Part shown: positions 3,058 to 37,084 of the stretch, one piece after another
Layout of the letters: each line of letters opens with the position of its first letter
How positions within the stretch are numbered: the first letter of the stretch is position 1
Origin: Thermoanaerobacter kivui
Lineage (GTDB): Bacteria; Bacillota; Thermoanaerobacteria; Thermoanaerobacterales; Thermoanaerobacteraceae
Direction: 5' to 3'
Length of the DNA: 64,000 nt
Assembly: GCF_000763575.1 (NCBI RefSeq)
Contig: NZ_CP009170.1
Span: 459,501-523,500, forward strand
Translations under genes and position numbers: made by a program
The notes under the pieces: model-generated
Seen by the model: only the letters and a program-made list of their open reading frames with translations
The model's database searches: none
Told to the model about the DNA's origin: nothing

Positions 3058-3663
3058 ATGAAGAGGCTAAAATATTTGGCTTTGATTACTTCAATTGCTC
3101 TTTTTACTACTATGTTTATGTTGAAGACAAAGTTTGAAGAACCTATTTATTTCTCTCAACAAAATTTGTGGAATAAAAATGAAACCCAGCTTACAAAAGA
3201 AAATGAGGCGATTTGTGTAGAAGAGAAAACTGCCAGTTCAAAAGTAGATAAAGAAGAAAAAGAAATGGCAAAAAGAAACCAAAGAAGTGAAAACGCCATA
3301 AAAGTAAAGATTTTCAAAGAGAAAATGTTGGAGGACCTGCTTAAACAAAAAAACATAGAAGTTTATGATTTGGGAAATAACAAAAAAGTGCAAAAGGAAA
3401 ATAATGGCTATAACAACATAATAATTACTCCAGAGAAGATTTTACAAGTGCAAAATGAGATGGAACCTTCACAAAAAATCAGAGTAATGAATATTATCCT
3501 TAAATTAGGGACAGAGGATATGAACGAAATTATGAAAATAGCTCAGAAGGGCTTGACACAAAAGGATAATGACAAAATAATGGAAATATTAAAAAATAAG
3601 CTTTCTTCTGAAGATGTTAGGTACCTTGTAGAAATAGCAAATGAATATTTTGCAAAAAAATAA
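3058..3663 (+). CDS. Hypothetical membrane-anchored protein
   Basis: I do not recognise the family. The protein has one N-terminal membrane segment (about residues 4-22), a long charged Lys/Glu-rich stretch (about 40-100), and a C-terminal helical part with two similar helices that mention thresholds of repeated LGTEDMNEIMKIA and LSSEDVRYLVEIA type, suggestive of a small repeat pair. I chose ATG 3058 over two in-frame TTGs at 3052 and 3055 because AAAGGA at 3042-3047 is correctly spaced from it. It lies next to yyaC, divergently, so a sporulation role is conceivable but not shown. Confidence 0.6.
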   Translation: MKRLKYLALITSIALFTTMFMLKTKFEEPIYFSQQNLWNKNETQLTKENEAICVEEKTASSKVDKEEKEMAKRNQRSENAIKVKIFKEKMLEDLLKQKNIEVYDLGNNKKVQKENNGYNNIIITPEKILQVQNEMEPSQKIRVMNIILKLGTEDMNEIMKIAQKGLTQKDNDKIMEILKNKLSSEDVRYLVEIANEYFAKK

Positions 3664-3688
3664 ACCCTTTCTTAAAATTAGAAGGGGT
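3664..3688 (+). repeat. Left flanking hairpin repeat of palindromic element copy 1
   Basis: A 25-bp stem-loop (arms ACCCTTT and AAGGGGT) starting directly after the stop codon at 3661-3663. The same 25 bp recur as a direct repeat at 3952-3976 with 22 of 25 matches, where the hairpin is followed by a T tract. The element between them thus appears to sit inside a duplicated transcription terminator. Confidence 0.65.
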
Positions 3689-3951
3689 CAGCTTATAGAC
3701 AAACTTTCGAAAATAGAATATTTTGCATAAGGAACGACTTGTGACAAAGCGGCAACAAAACTTAGCAAGACCAAGGGTGGAGGCAGGGCCGTAGCCAAGG
3801 ATGGCGAAGGCGGGCACTAAGACAAGGATGTCGAATGTGCCCGGTACCCTGCCGGAACCCGAAGGTCGAGCTTAGTTTTGTCGCTTTGGAACATCGGAAT
3901 GACGATGCAAAATATCCTATTTTAAAAATTTTTGACTTTGTAAACAAGCTG
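3689..3951 (+). mobile_element. Palindromic MITE-like element, copy 1
   Basis: A noncoding, GC-rich, highly self-complementary element in an AT-rich background. Its core (3712-3921) ends in inverted repeats AATAGAATATTTTGCAT (3712-3728) and ATGCAAAATATCCTATT (3905-3921), one mismatch. Inside, nested arms pair: 3755-3766 with 3870-3881, 3769-3772 with 3864-3867, 3775-3778 with 3857-3860, GGCAGGG with CCCTGCC, and GGGCAC with GTGCCC at the tip. A second copy lies inverted at 36789-37054. Several differences between copies are paired and keep base pairing. No transposase gene is present, so movement in trans by an unseen enzyme is inferred. ORFs crossing it are not credible genes. Confidence 0.8.
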
Positions 3952-3980
3952 ACCCTTTGTTAAAATCAGAAAGGGTTTTT
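3952..3980 (+). terminator. Intrinsic terminator / right flanking repeat of element copy 1
   Basis: Stem ACCCTTT / AAAGGGT followed by TTTTT on the plus strand. It is the direct repeat partner of 3664-3688 and overlaps the last codons of the minus-strand gene ending at 3966. It would end transcription coming from the plus-strand gene at 3058-3663. Confidence 0.7.
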
Positions 3981-6353
3981 AAATTTCGCTAATTTATTTA
4001 TAAGATTTTTAAACTGATAGTTTACTTCTTTGCCGTTTACCATTACAGAGATAAAACCAAAGTCATTGTATATGTCATTGGTATTGCCTTCTACGTCGGT
4101 ACCATAAGTTGTGATGTATCTTATTTCATCATTTAAAGTAGTGTAAAACTTGCTTTTGCTGTTATATATAATCCACACATTTTTACCTGTATTTTTGTTA
4201 AATTCTTTTAGAGTTTCTTCAAATAAAGCAGCTTCTTTTACGTCTTTAAAACCATCACTTCCCCATACTGGTTTAGGAAGTATGACAAAAAGGTTATCTC
4301 CTTTTACATTTTTCAATTGTTCTTTAAACCAAGTCCATTGGTTTTTATCGGGACTTAAAAGACTTCCACTGCGATTGTTAAGTACAATAAATGTAGAATT
4401 GTTATAATTATATACTTTATACTTATCACCGGTGGTGATATATTTAACCTTCAAATTATTTAAGACTTTTTCATTTACATCTCCTAAAAATATAGCCAGT
4501 GGGTATTCTTTGTTTGCAATATCAGCCGCTTTTAAAGATATTTGCAACTTCAAAAGGGTGTTGTATTTTGTATCGCCAAATACCATAAACTTAAAAGAAT
4601 TAGAAGTATTTTTCACAGGCACTTCTTTATTTGATGGGTCTATCTGTGTAAATTCTGTAACTTTAGGAAGTACTGACGTGTCAAATTCTGAACCTTGCCC
4701 TACTTTAACGGGTAAAATGGCTTTTTCTCCCAGTATATTTACGACAAGTGCACCATTCACATCGAAATTAGAGGATATAAATACTCCCTTGCTATCTATA
4801 TTGCCAATGTTGTTATAAACATCCCAAGTGATATCTTGCGGTTCTATTAAAGCTCTGTAACCTTTTATGTTCTTTGCTGTGACTGTTATGGGTACTGCTT
4901 TGTTTTTATCAACGACTATATTAGCAGGGTTAAACCGTATATCCACAGGCTTGTCAAGAGAATTTATCTTGATAGTCCCAATGACATTGCCTACTCTTGC
5001 AGTTATAATGCCTTCTCCCACGCTTGTTGGCATAAAAGTGTTACCACTGAATACTCCAGTAATCCCATTTACTGAAAATAAAACTTCTTCGGGATTAATT
5101 GTGACAGGATTGTAATTTTCATCGTATCCTTTAACTGTAATTGTTCTGTGAAGTCCTTTAAACACGTTAGTATCTGATACTTCTAATTTTAAAGCGTATA
5201 GATTTCCCTTAGGAGCTGTGTTAAATATTCCTATTCCATTTGCTACTTTTCTTTCATAGCCTTCAGGAGCATAATTTGCAAGTTTAGCGTCAGTATCCCC
5301 CAATGGCCTTATAGCCATTTGTGTTGACCCGCCACCGTCTAAGTTTAAAGCATCATATGCACCTAAAGATATCATTAAATTTGCCATTTCTTTTTGTGTC
5401 ATTCCACGGCTTGAAGTGCCGTCAACAGTTGCGATGATCAAATATTTTTTGTCTTTAGTATATCCAATTGCTGTTCGTGCTGTGTAGCCTTTTATTTCAT
5501 GAGTGAAAGGCGCAATTTTTCCGTCTTTTACAAGGATTGTGCCGCCACTTACAGCCATTTTGAGATTTTGAAAGGGAGGATTTGTATTTATGTCTTTTTG
5601 TATTATATCTCCTGGCTTTAAAGTGAGTAAATTTTCACCTACATAACCTGCACCAGCCAACACATATCCGCCTTGTGGTATTTCGACAGAAGGCTGTCCT
5701 TGACGCACTTCTAATACCCTGTCGTTACCATCTACAACCACTTCTACTAACTGAGGTATATTTTTGTTTGCCCCCGGAGATGTTGTAAACCAGTCTCTTG
5801 TAAACATTACTAAATACTCAAAAGTGCTACTTATTTTATTTATTGCGGCAAGAGGAAGTTTTGTGCCGTTTGGAAGAGTAACGGACATGCTTTTTGACCA
5901 ATATTCTATAGAGGGAACCCCATTTGCGTCAATGAAAAAAGTAGCCAATTTACCCACATTTGAAGGGTCTGTTATTAACCTTCCATCTTTTACTGTTGCT
6001 CCTATTACGAATCCTGTTTTTGTATCGAAGAAATCGCCATTCACAGCAGCTACGGCACCATAAGCATTTGCCATATCCCGCACCGTCATTCTATCTTTTA
6101 TGCCAGTGGGATTGAAAATCACCGATACATCAGTGTATTTATCAGTCAAATCCACTTTTAACACATTTATGTTTATCCATCCTTCAGTCGTAAAATAGGT
6201 TATATTTTTATGTACAACTCCCTTACTTAAATTTTCCGTAAATTCTTTTGTCTCAAGGATTGTATATGTATCAGCCTTTACATTTTGTATTGGAAAAGCT
6301 AAGAATAGAAGAAGAATGCTGATACATAAAGATAAGATTTTTTTAATGCGCAA
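3966..6353 (-). CDS. Exported phosphodiester glycosidase (NAGPA-type) with Ig-like and phosphoesterase-like domains
   Basis: A 795-residue secreted protein. The signal peptide is residues 1-27 (NVKA end). A NAGPA/phosphodiester glycosidase domain follows (about 80-380) with the hallmark NGDFFD (105-110) and DGGGST (339-344). Ig-like domains span about 385-550. The C-terminus (about 585-790) resembles a calcineurin-type phosphoesterase but its motifs are degenerate: GDTK where GDxH is expected (593-596), LGDVNE, and no GNH or GHxH. It probably acts on cell-wall or surface glycan phosphodiesters, with the last domain possibly binding only. Start TTG 6353 has an AGGAGGG site upstream. The last codons overlap the terminator repeat. 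Confidence 0.8.
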   Translation of the reverse strand: MRIKKILSLCISILLLFLAFPIQNVKADTYTILETKEFTENLSKGVVHKNITYFTTEGWININVLKVDLTDKYTDVSVIFNPTGIKDRMTVRDMANAYGAVAAVNGDFFDTKTGFVIGATVKDGRLITDPSNVGKLATFFIDANGVPSIEYWSKSMSVTLPNGTKLPLAAINKISSTFEYLVMFTRDWFTTSPGANKNIPQLVEVVVDGNDRVLEVRQGQPSVEIPQGGYVLAGAGYVGENLLTLKPGDIIQKDINTNPPFQNLKMAVSGGTILVKDGKIAPFTHEIKGYTARTAIGYTKDKKYLIIATVDGTSSRGMTQKEMANLMISLGAYDALNLDGGGSTQMAIRPLGDTDAKLANYAPEGYERKVANGIGIFNTAPKGNLYALKLEVSDTNVFKGLHRTITVKGYDENYNPVTINPEEVLFSVNGITGVFSGNTFMPTSVGEGIITARVGNVIGTIKINSLDKPVDIRFNPANIVVDKNKAVPITVTAKNIKGYRALIEPQDITWDVYNNIGNIDSKGVFISSNFDVNGALVVNILGEKAILPVKVGQGSEFDTSVLPKVTEFTQIDPSNKEVPVKNTSNSFKFMVFGDTKYNTLLKLQISLKAADIANKEYPLAIFLGDVNEKVLNNLKVKYITTGDKYKVYNYNNSTFIVLNNRSGSLLSPDKNQWTWFKEQLKNVKGDNLFVILPKPVWGSDGFKDVKEAALFEETLKEFNKNTGKNVWIIYNSKSKFYTTLNDEIRYITTYGTDVEGNTNDIYNDFGFISVMVNGKEVNYQFKNLINKLAKFKNPF

Positions 6354-6726: not shown

Positions 6727-6802
6727 CGGGATGTGGCGCAGTTGGTAGCGCACGTGCTTTGGGAGCATGGGGTCGGGGGTTCAAGTCCCTCCATCCCGAC
6801 CA
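6727..6802 (+). tRNA. tRNA-Pro (anticodon TGG)
   Basis: Full cloverleaf: acceptor CGGGATG / CATCCCG, anticodon loop TTTGGGA with TGG, T arm GGGGG-TTCAAGT-CCCTC, discriminator A and encoded CCA (6800-6802). Confidence 0.96.
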
Positions 6803-6806
6803 GTGT

Positions 6807-6882
6807 GGTCGTATAGCTCAGCTGGGAGAGCACCTGCCTTACAAGCAGGGGGTCATAGGTTCGAGTCCTATTGCGACCACCA
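6807..6882 (+). tRNA. tRNA-Val (anticodon TAC)
   Basis: Cloverleaf with acceptor GGTCGTA / TGCGACC, anticodon arm CCTGC-CTTACAA-GCAGG (TAC), T arm ATAGG-TTCGAGT-CCTAT and encoded CCA (6880-6882). Only 4 bp separate it from tRNA-Pro. Confidence 0.96.
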
Positions 6883-6907
6883 TTATTTATATAAAAATCA
6901 AAAGTGT

Positions 6908-6993
6908 GGAGGGATACCCAAGCGGCCAAAGGGGGCAGACTGTAAATCTGTTGGCTATCGCCTTCGATGGTTCGAATCCATCTCCCTCCACCA
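6908..6993 (+). tRNA. tRNA-Tyr (anticodon GTA)
   Basis: An 86-nt class II tRNA with a long variable arm: acceptor GGAGGGA / TCCCTCC, anticodon GTA in the loop TGTAAAT, T arm GATGG-TTCGAAT-CCATC, encoded CCA (6991-6993). Confidence 0.96.
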
Positions 6994-7800: not shown

Positions 7801-7950
7801 ACATGCTCTTATCAAGAGAGGTGGAGGGAAAGAGCCCGATGAAACCCAGCAACCTGTCCTATAGGACAAGGTGCTAATTCTCTCAGAAGCATGCTTCTGA
7901 AAGATGAGGGTATGTGCCTCTTCTTTTGGAAGGGGTTTTATTTTGTTTTT
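7801..7950 (+). ncRNA. SAM-I (S-box) riboswitch with terminator
   Basis: The S-box core is plain: AGAGAGGTGGAGGGA, GCCCGATGAAACCCAGCAACC and AAGGTGCTAATTC. The P1 arms are 7801-7813 and 7903-7915. An expression-platform terminator follows: CCTCTTC / GAAGGGG with a T-rich tail (7917-7950). S-adenosylmethionine binding stabilises P1 and lets the terminator form, so metK is switched off when SAM is plentiful. Confidence 0.95.
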
Positions 7951-16097: not shown

Positions 16098-16655
16098 ATG
16101 AATATAGTGATAAATCAAACTTTTGGCAGGATAGGTATAGACACTACTCCTGCCCAAATTTCTATACAAAGCCCAAAAGCAGACCTTGAAATAGAACAAA
16201 TACCTGCAAAAATGGAAATAGACAAAAAACTTCCGCAAGTGCATATAGACCAATATCAGTGTTTTTATGAAGCAGGGCTTAAAAATATCTTTGACCTTGT
16301 ACATGATGAGGCAGAGAGGAGTAAAAAGATAGCTTTGGATGCTATAGGTAAAATTGCTGAAGATGGGGATATATTAGCTTCTATAGAAACTCACCAAGAT
16401 GCAATTGTAAGTTTAAGTGAAGAAGCCTTGATTCAGGATATAGATTTCAACGTTGACCTCATGCCAAAGTCAAGGCCTAAAATATGGTTTGAAGGATATT
16501 TAAAGATAAATTGGGAATTGGGTGGTGTAGAAATAAAAGCAATCCCTCACAAGGTTGTAATATCTGCAACACCAGCTCATGTAGAAATATACCTAAGGCA
16601 ATATCCTTCGATAAAAATAGAGTATATAGGGAATCACGTTGATAAGAGGATATGA
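16098..16655 (+). CDS. yviE: YviE-like protein (DUF6470)
   Basis: A 185-residue protein in the place of B. subtilis yviE, between flgL and fliW. Its alternating short beta-like repeats (ISIQSPKADLEIEQIPAKME, IDKKLPQVHID) are typical of DUF6470. The function is unknown. It starts 4 bp after flgL, so it is clearly in the operon, and overlaps no other gene once fliW is started at 16681. Confidence 0.82.
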   Translation: MNIVINQTFGRIGIDTTPAQISIQSPKADLEIEQIPAKMEIDKKLPQVHIDQYQCFYEAGLKNIFDLVHDEAERSKKIALDAIGKIAEDGDILASIETHQDAIVSLSEEALIQDIDFNVDLMPKSRPKIWFEGYLKINWELGGVEIKAIPHKVVISATPAHVEIYLRQYPSIKIEYIGNHVDKRI

Positions 16656-16680
16656 TTTAAAAGAAAGTGAGGAATTTGGG

Positions 16681-17133
16681 ATGGAACTTAATACAAAAAA
16701 TTTTGGAATTATCCATTACAATGAAGAGGATGTCATTTACTTCGAAGAAGGTATTCCGGGTTTTGAAGAATTGCACAATTTCTTGATAATTGGCGATGAA
16801 AGTGAAGATATGCCTTTTAAATGGCTTCAATCAATAGATAACCCTGACATAGCCTTTGTAGTCATTGACCCCAGAGTTTTTAAGCCGGATTATACCTTTG
16901 AAATTGATGAAGAATTAAAAAATTTTCTGGCGGTAGAGGATGTAAATCACCTTTTAATATTCGTGATTGTGGTAATCCCCGAGAAGATAGAAGAGATGAC
17001 TGCCAACCTGAAAGCTCCTATAATTATAAACGCTGAAAACAACAGAGGGGCCCAGATTATACTGGATAATGATAAATACCTGATAAAACATCCTATACTG
17101 GAGGAACTTAAAAATGCTTATTCTCACGCGTAA
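16681..17133 (+). CDS. fliW: Flagellar assembly factor FliW
   Basis: A 150-residue protein that binds either flagellin or CsrA. When flagellin is exported, FliW is freed and blocks CsrA, which lets flagellin mRNA be translated. Typical features: IHYNEEDVIYFEEGIPGFEE near the start, MPFKWLQSIDNPDIAFVVIDP. ATG 16681 fits the GTGAGGA site and the usual family start better than upstream TTG 16639. Its 3' end overlaps csrA by 20 bp. Confidence 0.93.
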   Translation: MELNTKNFGIIHYNEEDVIYFEEGIPGFEELHNFLIIGDESEDMPFKWLQSIDNPDIAFVVIDPRVFKPDYTFEIDEELKNFLAVEDVNHLLIFVIVVIPEKIEEMTANLKAPIIINAENNRGAQIILDNDKYLIKHPILEELKNAYSHA

Positions 17134-17341
17134 AATAGGTCAATCCATAATTATAGGGGAAAATGTAGAAGTAAAGATAGTAAGTATTGAAGAAGGGAAA
17201 GTAAAACTGGGGATTACCGCTCCAAAAGAAGTGACTGTATTAAGAAAAGAACTCATAGAAGTAATGGATGAAAATATAAAGGCGGCAAGTGTGAGCAAAG
17301 AAGCTGTAAAGGAGATAGAAAAATTTATCAAAAAACGCTAA
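17114..17341 (+). CDS. csrA: Carbon storage regulator CsrA
   Basis: A 75-residue RNA-binding dimer (MLILTRKIGQSIIIGENVEV). It represses flagellin translation by binding GGA motifs in the hag leader. A good candidate site is seen at 17425-17436. It is translationally linked to fliW by a 20-bp overlap. Confidence 0.96.
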   Translation: MLILTRKIGQSIIIGENVEVKIVSIEEGKVKLGITAPKEVTVLRKELIEVMDENIKAASVSKEAVKEIEKFIKKR

Positions 17342-36765: not shown

Positions 36766-36788
36766 AAACGTCTCATTTTGAGATGTTT
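36766..36788 (+). repeat. Left flanking hairpin repeat of palindromic element copy 2
   Basis: Stem-loop AAACGTCTC-ATTTT-GAGATGTTT, 12 bp after the ECF gene. It is a near copy of the terminator at 37055-37084 on the other side of the element. Confidence 0.6.
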
Positions 36789-37054
36789 TAGCTTGATAAC
36801 AAAGTTAAAAAAATTATTTAAAGTAGATATTTTACATCGTTGCTCCGGAGTTCCAAAGCGACAAAGCTAAGCGCGACTTTCGGATTCCGGCAGGGTGCCG
36901 GGCACATTCGACGTCCTGTCTCAGGTGCCCGCCTCCGCCATCACAAGGCTACGGCCCTGCCTCCATCCTCAGTCTTGCTAAGCTTTGTTAGCGCTTTGTC
37001 ACAAGTCGCAACTTATGTAAAATATCTACTTTACGAAAGTTTGTCATCAGCCTG
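36789..37054 (-). mobile_element. Palindromic MITE-like element, copy 2 (inverted)
   Basis: Second copy of the element at 3689-3951, in the opposite orientation. The core has exact 16-bp terminal inverted repeats AGTAGATATTTTACAT (36822-36837) and its complement (37015-37030). The same nested arms are present, e.g. 36861-36872 with 36977-36988. Similarity to copy 1 extends past the core to about 30-45 bp on each side. No transposase. The ORF that crosses it has no ribosome site. Confidence 0.8.
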
Positions 37055-37084
37055 AAACGCCTCAATTTTGAGGCGTTCTTTTTT
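37055..37084 (+). terminator. Terminator / right flanking repeat of element copy 2
   Basis: Stem AAACGCCTC / GAGGCGTTC around AATTTT, then six T. Probably the original terminator of the ECF gene, now separated from it by the element. Confidence 0.78.

Follow-up and report, generated by a model that had tools for sequence, protein, structure and literature searches.

The palindrome that occurs twice in the window, a 64,000-nucleotide stretch of Thermoanaerobacter kivui DNA, is a miniature inverted-repeat transposable element (MITE) of about 265 bp with TCAG...CTGA ends. It is almost certainly a terminator-targeting MITE of the IS1182 type. Taking all its parts together, we find it probable that this is a non-autonomous element carrying a TwoAYGGAY-like RNA, for which CsrA would be the likeliest partner. 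The model is built on the repeat family, the ends shared with an IS1182 element, the duplication of target hairpins, empty sites, similarity to RF01731, loop conservation and covariation. The payload would be an RNA fold of the TwoAYGGAY kind, roughly 160 nt long, with two A-N-GGA hairpins. Its most likely function would be to bind a CsrA dimer, acting as a dispersed CsrA sponge or as a binding site in 3′-UTRs.

A sequence-only reading of the window had described a palindromic element with nested arms in two copies, the second inverted relative to the first, and we find both copies in place and in those orientations. Their exact ends are 3688-3952 for copy 1 (plus strand; sequence and genome-wide repeat search) and 36788-37055 for the diverged copy 2 (minus strand; genome match G000:C1:496290-496545), compared with 3689-3951 and 36789-37054 in that reading. 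Searching with the terminal inverted repeat (TIR) pattern, we located the two TIRs of copy 1 at 3688-3706 (plus strand) and 3934-3952 (minus strand). The palindrome arms thus double as transposon arms, a point beyond the earlier description. The four paired differences that had been proposed between the copies were all recovered when the letters were read: G3725-C3908 is A-T in copy 2, A3760-T3876 is G-C, C3772-G3864 is T-A and G3777-C3858 is A-T. In an alignment of 86 copies these are columns 44-233, 79-201, 91-187 and 96-181, and all four double changes occur in copy 2 only. The fold of 3657-3985, which takes in the element and its flanking hairpins, is beyond chance (z = -12.6; 0 of 100 shuffles equally stable). 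A sigma-70-like site at 3696-3724 (TAGACA-17-TATTTT) was one of five promoter-like matches against 0.8 in shuffles, and we did not count it as evidence. Elsewhere in the window, an Rfam search gave a SAM riboswitch (S box) at 7806-7910 (plus strand, 87.7 bits), and three clustered tRNA genes lie at 6727-6990 (plus strand).

The element belongs to a repeat family. The T. kivui genome holds it in at least 27 places, obtained from 35 matches after pieces were merged by hand; the count is a lower bound as 40 of 62 candidates were scored. Performing BLAST in 61 genomes, we matched the element in all ten genomes of the genus, T. kivui included. Six of nine genomes of another group of the same family (g2), which we take from sequence and literature to be Thermoanaerobacterium, gave one diverged match each, and among the 61 genomes no BLAST match fell outside the family. 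The copies share the ends TCAG-N-Y-TGT-NN-ACAAA, and the TIR pattern found 49 genomic sites against none for a reversed-pattern control. Two full-length elements, L092 2007-3575 and L101 3081-4648, start with the TIR of the MITE and have the same flank organisation. The full-length element encodes an IS1182-family transposase (NF033551, 496 bits, cut-off 270) with DUF772 and DDE domains, so that the ends of the MITE match those of an autonomous IS1182-family element in its own genome. Five copies of full length match L092 at 99.6-100% identity across about 1.57 kb; three of the five have a hairpin duplication and two lack it. The non-autonomous MITE would presumably be moved in trans by this transposase.

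Other short sequences carry the same TIRs (L090 2994-3179, L094 9155-9347, L095, L099 and L102), several of them between repeated hairpins, which suggests that more MITE families belong to this IS1182 element. We also noticed a 68-71 bp hairpin, CCCGGCACTCA...TGAGTGCCGG, in one arm of L015, L016, L017, L023, L029, L030 and L243, placed between GCGAC and AAACTTAGC. L244, an orthologous copy, lacks this hairpin, and the hairpin loop of L017 is inverted relative to that of L015. This is possibly a separate small mobile hairpin.

The element inserts at transcription terminators, typically with one whole copy of the hairpin on each side. At copy 1, the left copy of the target hairpin (CCCTTTCTTAAAATTAGAAGGGG, 3665-3687, no strand assigned) is a 23-bp direct repeat, 87% identical, of the right copy at 3953-3975 (no strand assigned), which is followed by TTTTT at 3976-3980. 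At copy 2, hairpins read by eye lie at 36767-36787 on the left (AACGTCTCATTTTGAGATGTT) and at 37056-37077 on the right, the latter followed by CTTTTTT (no strand assigned to either); the left one is decayed, and our automatic criterion for flush repeats missed it. Applying that criterion by script to flank-distinct, near-full copies, we found flush direct repeats of 14-31 bp at 63 of 93, compared with 7 of 1837 when flanks were shuffled and re-paired. All but one of the 63 repeats are palindromic and fold as a hairpin. Some of the 30 copies that fail the rule have visibly offset or decayed duplications.

Orthologous sites show the terminators without the element as well as with it. The copy 1 site is empty, with a single hairpin, in three genomes (G005, G008 and G009). 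The same terminator carries an element in the opposite orientation in G002 (G002:C149), where the 23-bp duplication of the hairpin is perfect, and has an insertion in G006 (G006:C33) too. The copy 2 site holds a like element in G007, another subfamily in G001, G002, G005, G008 and G009, a rearranged element in G006, and no element in G003 and G004. Considering both sites, the repeat hits on one terminator are in opposite orientation or of another subfamily.

We propose that insertion would begin with recognition of the stem-loop of an intrinsic terminator and joining at the feet of the hairpin; joining there would copy the whole terminator hairpin on both sides. After such an insertion, the T-run would be absent from the first hairpin and kept at the second. 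Without a T-run at the left hairpin, transcription of the upstream gene would be expected to continue across the element and end at the right hairpin. The gene would still be terminated, but the 3′ untranslated part of its transcript would now include the element. Of 97 copies, 73 have on their GGA-sense side an open frame whose end is no more than 200 nt away; for the other side the number is 62. A gene-orientation bias of the insertions is not clear among these 97 (30 sense-only, 19 antisense-only, 43 convergent and 5 neither). The side of the T-run did not help to tell the direction of transcription, since both flanks carry A-runs as well as T-runs.

The centre of copy 1 (3738-3895, plus strand) resembles the structured RNA TwoAYGGAY. 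An Rfam search, which the sequence-only reading had suggested, gave no match on the element at the gathering threshold; in E-value mode, both the window copy and a g2 copy matched RF01731, the window copy at 40.4 bits (E 0.0006-0.001), below the gathering score of 43. Members of RF01731 in G020, G022, G039 and 28 further genomes lie above the gathering score. TwoAYGGAY has been catalogued as probably an RNA, from gut, gamma-proteobacterial and Clostridiales sequences (PMC2864571, in the part available); a helix extension with covariation support has been described (PMC7657543, likewise in part). Two hairpins and the stem of the A-Y-GGA-Y motif are present in the element, and the base ahead of GGA is A in the window copy, while most copies have A, C or T there. 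There is little doubt, in our assessment, that the core is a genuine relative of TwoAYGGAY.

The CsrA-binding hairpin has the consensus CANGGANG. The first GGA hairpin of the window copy, GCCAAGGATGGC (3794-3805, plus strand), and the second, GACAAGGATGTC (3821-3832, plus strand), both have this form. Across the 86 copies, the loop G, G and A of the first each have a frequency of 1.0, and its N position varies; the second has 0.97, 1.0 and 1.0. Two CANGGANG sites are present in 69 copies, one in 16 and none in 1, and the opposite strand has none in any of the 86. GGA enrichment failed as independent evidence for CsrA, with 7 occurrences against 6.2 in dinucleotide shuffles (p = 0.44).

The proposed partner is encoded in the same window. 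A csrA gene lies at 17114-17341 (plus strand; Pfam CsrA, 76.8 bits; PDB matches include 2jpp and 2mf0), with fliW upstream at 16639-17133 (plus strand; Pfam FliW, 154 bits); its tie to the element would be through the GGA hairpins. csrA is present in all ten genomes of the genus. In a phylum sample of 398 genomes, in each of which six candidates were scored, 29 genomes had RF01731 matches at E <= 1e-5. Of these positive genomes 28 have csrA, compared with 257 of the 369 negative ones (Fisher p = 0.0006, phylogeny not being taken into account). Two GGA hairpins are kept in the one exception, G213, which gave no match in the CsrA search (the genome is 94% complete). For the count of GGA sites across loci, L260 and L280 were excluded as their contigs end early, and L270 of G020 was not included. 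TwoAYGGAY was predicted in 2014, from motif matches, to bind CsrA (PMC4333381, in the part available), and the accessible part of PMC4383904 is unrelated to a link between MITEs and CsrA. We would give about even chances to binding of the element RNA by CsrA in the cell.

The core is also carried by other sequences. G020, a genome of another family, has 29 RF01731 matches. The 17 that we read have ends unlike those of the Thermoanaerobacter element, which puts the RNA core on at least two transposon types. A script detected exact direct repeats of 9-12 bp that do not form hairpins immediately beyond L219, L221 and L222, and inspection by eye added such repeats at L215, L218 and L226. The core of G153 has GACAAA-type ends and a copy of a terminator hairpin on either side, in which it resembles the Thermoanaerobacter element. 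The single core in six of the nine g2 genomes is without the Thermoanaerobacter ends, and all six flanks are the ctpA/glycerate-kinase interval. At this one locus (L040-L045) the sister-genus core is found in opposite orientations across species.

The sequence-only reading had called for a statistical test of covariation. Performing it on 86 unique near-full copies and 88 pairs, we find significant covariation. Double changes occur in 17 pairs, against 7.5 ± 1.5 in shuffled data (0 of 500 shuffles reach 17), and in 214 cells, against 75 ± 15. The covariation score was 0.104, compared with 0.066 for shuffled data and 0.017-0.029 for slid structures. Pairing is kept in 97.7% of cells, which together with the excess of double changes indicates that changes in the arms keep pairing; we did not see them breaking it as often, the outcome that would speak against that reading. 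Three adjacent pairs, columns 33-35, contribute 125 of the 214 double-changed cells. They are swapped en bloc, no copy being altered on one arm only, a pattern that resembles template switching or palindrome recombination and not stepwise compensation. The inner pairs 53-225, 84-196 and 145-154 have G.U intermediates.

We also asked which strand the changes favor. Counting by parsimony, changes from Watson-Crick pairs to G.T exceed those to A.C in the core (58 v 26, p = 0.0006), and the TIRs gave 22 v 17. When the opposite strand was folded to obtain the structure, the counts were 42 v 24 (p = 0.036), and for pairs common to both strand structures they were 33 v 19 (p = 0.07). For the inner stems, using the union of structures, G.U on the GGA strand exceeded A.C by 67 v 31 (p = 0.0004), and the same changes at unpaired sites had the opposite trend (44 v 60). 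The bias falls short of significance with the pair as the unit of count (24 v 14, p = 0.14), as it does in a second lineage (G020/G022, 18 copies; 37 v 31), which leaves selection on the RNA fold likely but unproven. The earlier claim of selection for an RNA or single-strand DNA fold is thus upheld as far as covariation beyond shuffles goes and weakened by the dominance of the block swap and by a strand bias that is suggestive and absent in the second lineage. We lean towards selection at the RNA level on the GGA strand, and the data of the genus suggest that it is added to palindrome repair at the DNA level.

Could the palindrome be a MITE whose fold serves DNA mobility only, as a cruciform or for recognition by the transposase, with an RNA that has no role? 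We consider this reading, in which template-switching correction of palindromes keeps the arms complementary, rather unlikely. The block swap in columns 33-35, the balance of G.T and A.C in G020 and an insertion orientation that is near random, and flipped at one sister-genus locus, all agree with such an element, as does the recognition of DNA stem-loops by IS1182 relatives (PMC4923244 and PMC5678879, in the parts available). The loops and the junction, however, are non-palindromic and GGA is still kept in nearly all copies, transposons with different ends retain the same core, and the inner stems favor G.U over A.C with the reverse at unpaired sites.

An RNA that serves the transposon itself, recruiting a host RNA-binding protein or protecting transcripts in favor of the element or the transposase mRNA and not of host regulation, is less probable still. 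A core of the CsrB clan on two or more transposon types would suggest a repeated advantage to mobile elements; against this, of the four core matches that a search of the T. kivui genome gave under strict filters, none lies inside a full-length IS1182 copy. The least probable of the alternatives is a free-standing CsrA-binding sRNA owned by the host that only in Thermoanaerobacter was taken up by a transposon. Although six of nine g2 genomes hold one BLAST-detected copy without Thermoanaerobacter ends in the ctpA/glycerate-kinase interval, the core lies in either orientation at that locus, and most positive genomes of the phylum sample (22 of 29) have at least two copies. The reading that we prefer remains the terminator-targeting MITE with a putatively CsrA-binding RNA.

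If CsrA binds the RNA, a selfish or domesticated element would be spreading the binding sites of a global regulator, and the Firmicutes would gain a candidate CsrA-binding RNA of the sort proposed in PMC4333381, the accessible part of which leaves validation open. More tentatively, CsrA sponges in Firmicutes may be mobile, with CsrB-clan RNA on at least two kinds of transposon scattered at terminators as the 3′ ends of many mRNAs. Each genome would then hold a dispersed, evolving pool of CsrA sites whose copy number would tune motility and metabolism, in place of one regulated sRNA gene. The element joins two puzzles, an Rfam family of unproven function that is a predicted CsrA binder and transposons that aim at terminator hairpins, and this pairing of mobile DNA with an RNA regulator is now testable at the bench.

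Three known systems compare with the element. It shares with TwoAYGGAY (RF01731) the overall fold, two GGA hairpin loops, a length of about 160 nt, Clostridia-type hosts and the clan CL00106. It differs in the sub-threshold score of the window copy, in its ANGGA(U) loop, whose second letter is A in that copy, and in being the core of a transposon; TwoAYGGAY did not turn up as a transposon in our literature search, which had subscription papers outside its coverage.

With CsrB/RsmB (RF00018), the element has in common the Rfam clan, paired GGA hairpins and csrA in the host; a yardstick run with E. coli CsrB returned the same clan label as TwoAYGGAY. CsrB, an sRNA from one gene, has many GGA sites; the putative RNA of the element has two canonical ones in each copy, and its copies are spread over terminators. 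Paired GGA hairpins with csrA in the host are thus features of the CsrB/RsmZ kind that the element has; GGA above composition is one that it lacks.

The closest parallel for the insertion is IS1272/TnSha1 of staphylococci, which belongs to the IS1182 family, as does the presumed driver of the MITE. In the available parts of PMC5678879 and PMC4923244, IS1272 targets stem-loops and terminators by structure, not sequence, and one terminator is hit repeatedly and in both orientations, as here. There, the hairpin is deleted with no target duplication; the MITE does not insert in this manner, and duplication of the whole hairpin is its common outcome. Such a duplication was drawn as a possible, hypothetical pathway b in PMC5678879 (as far as the accessible part goes), so the MITE offers natural evidence for one branch of the proposed model of structure-guided transposition. 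Unlike IS1272/TnSha1, it is non-autonomous and carries an RNA.
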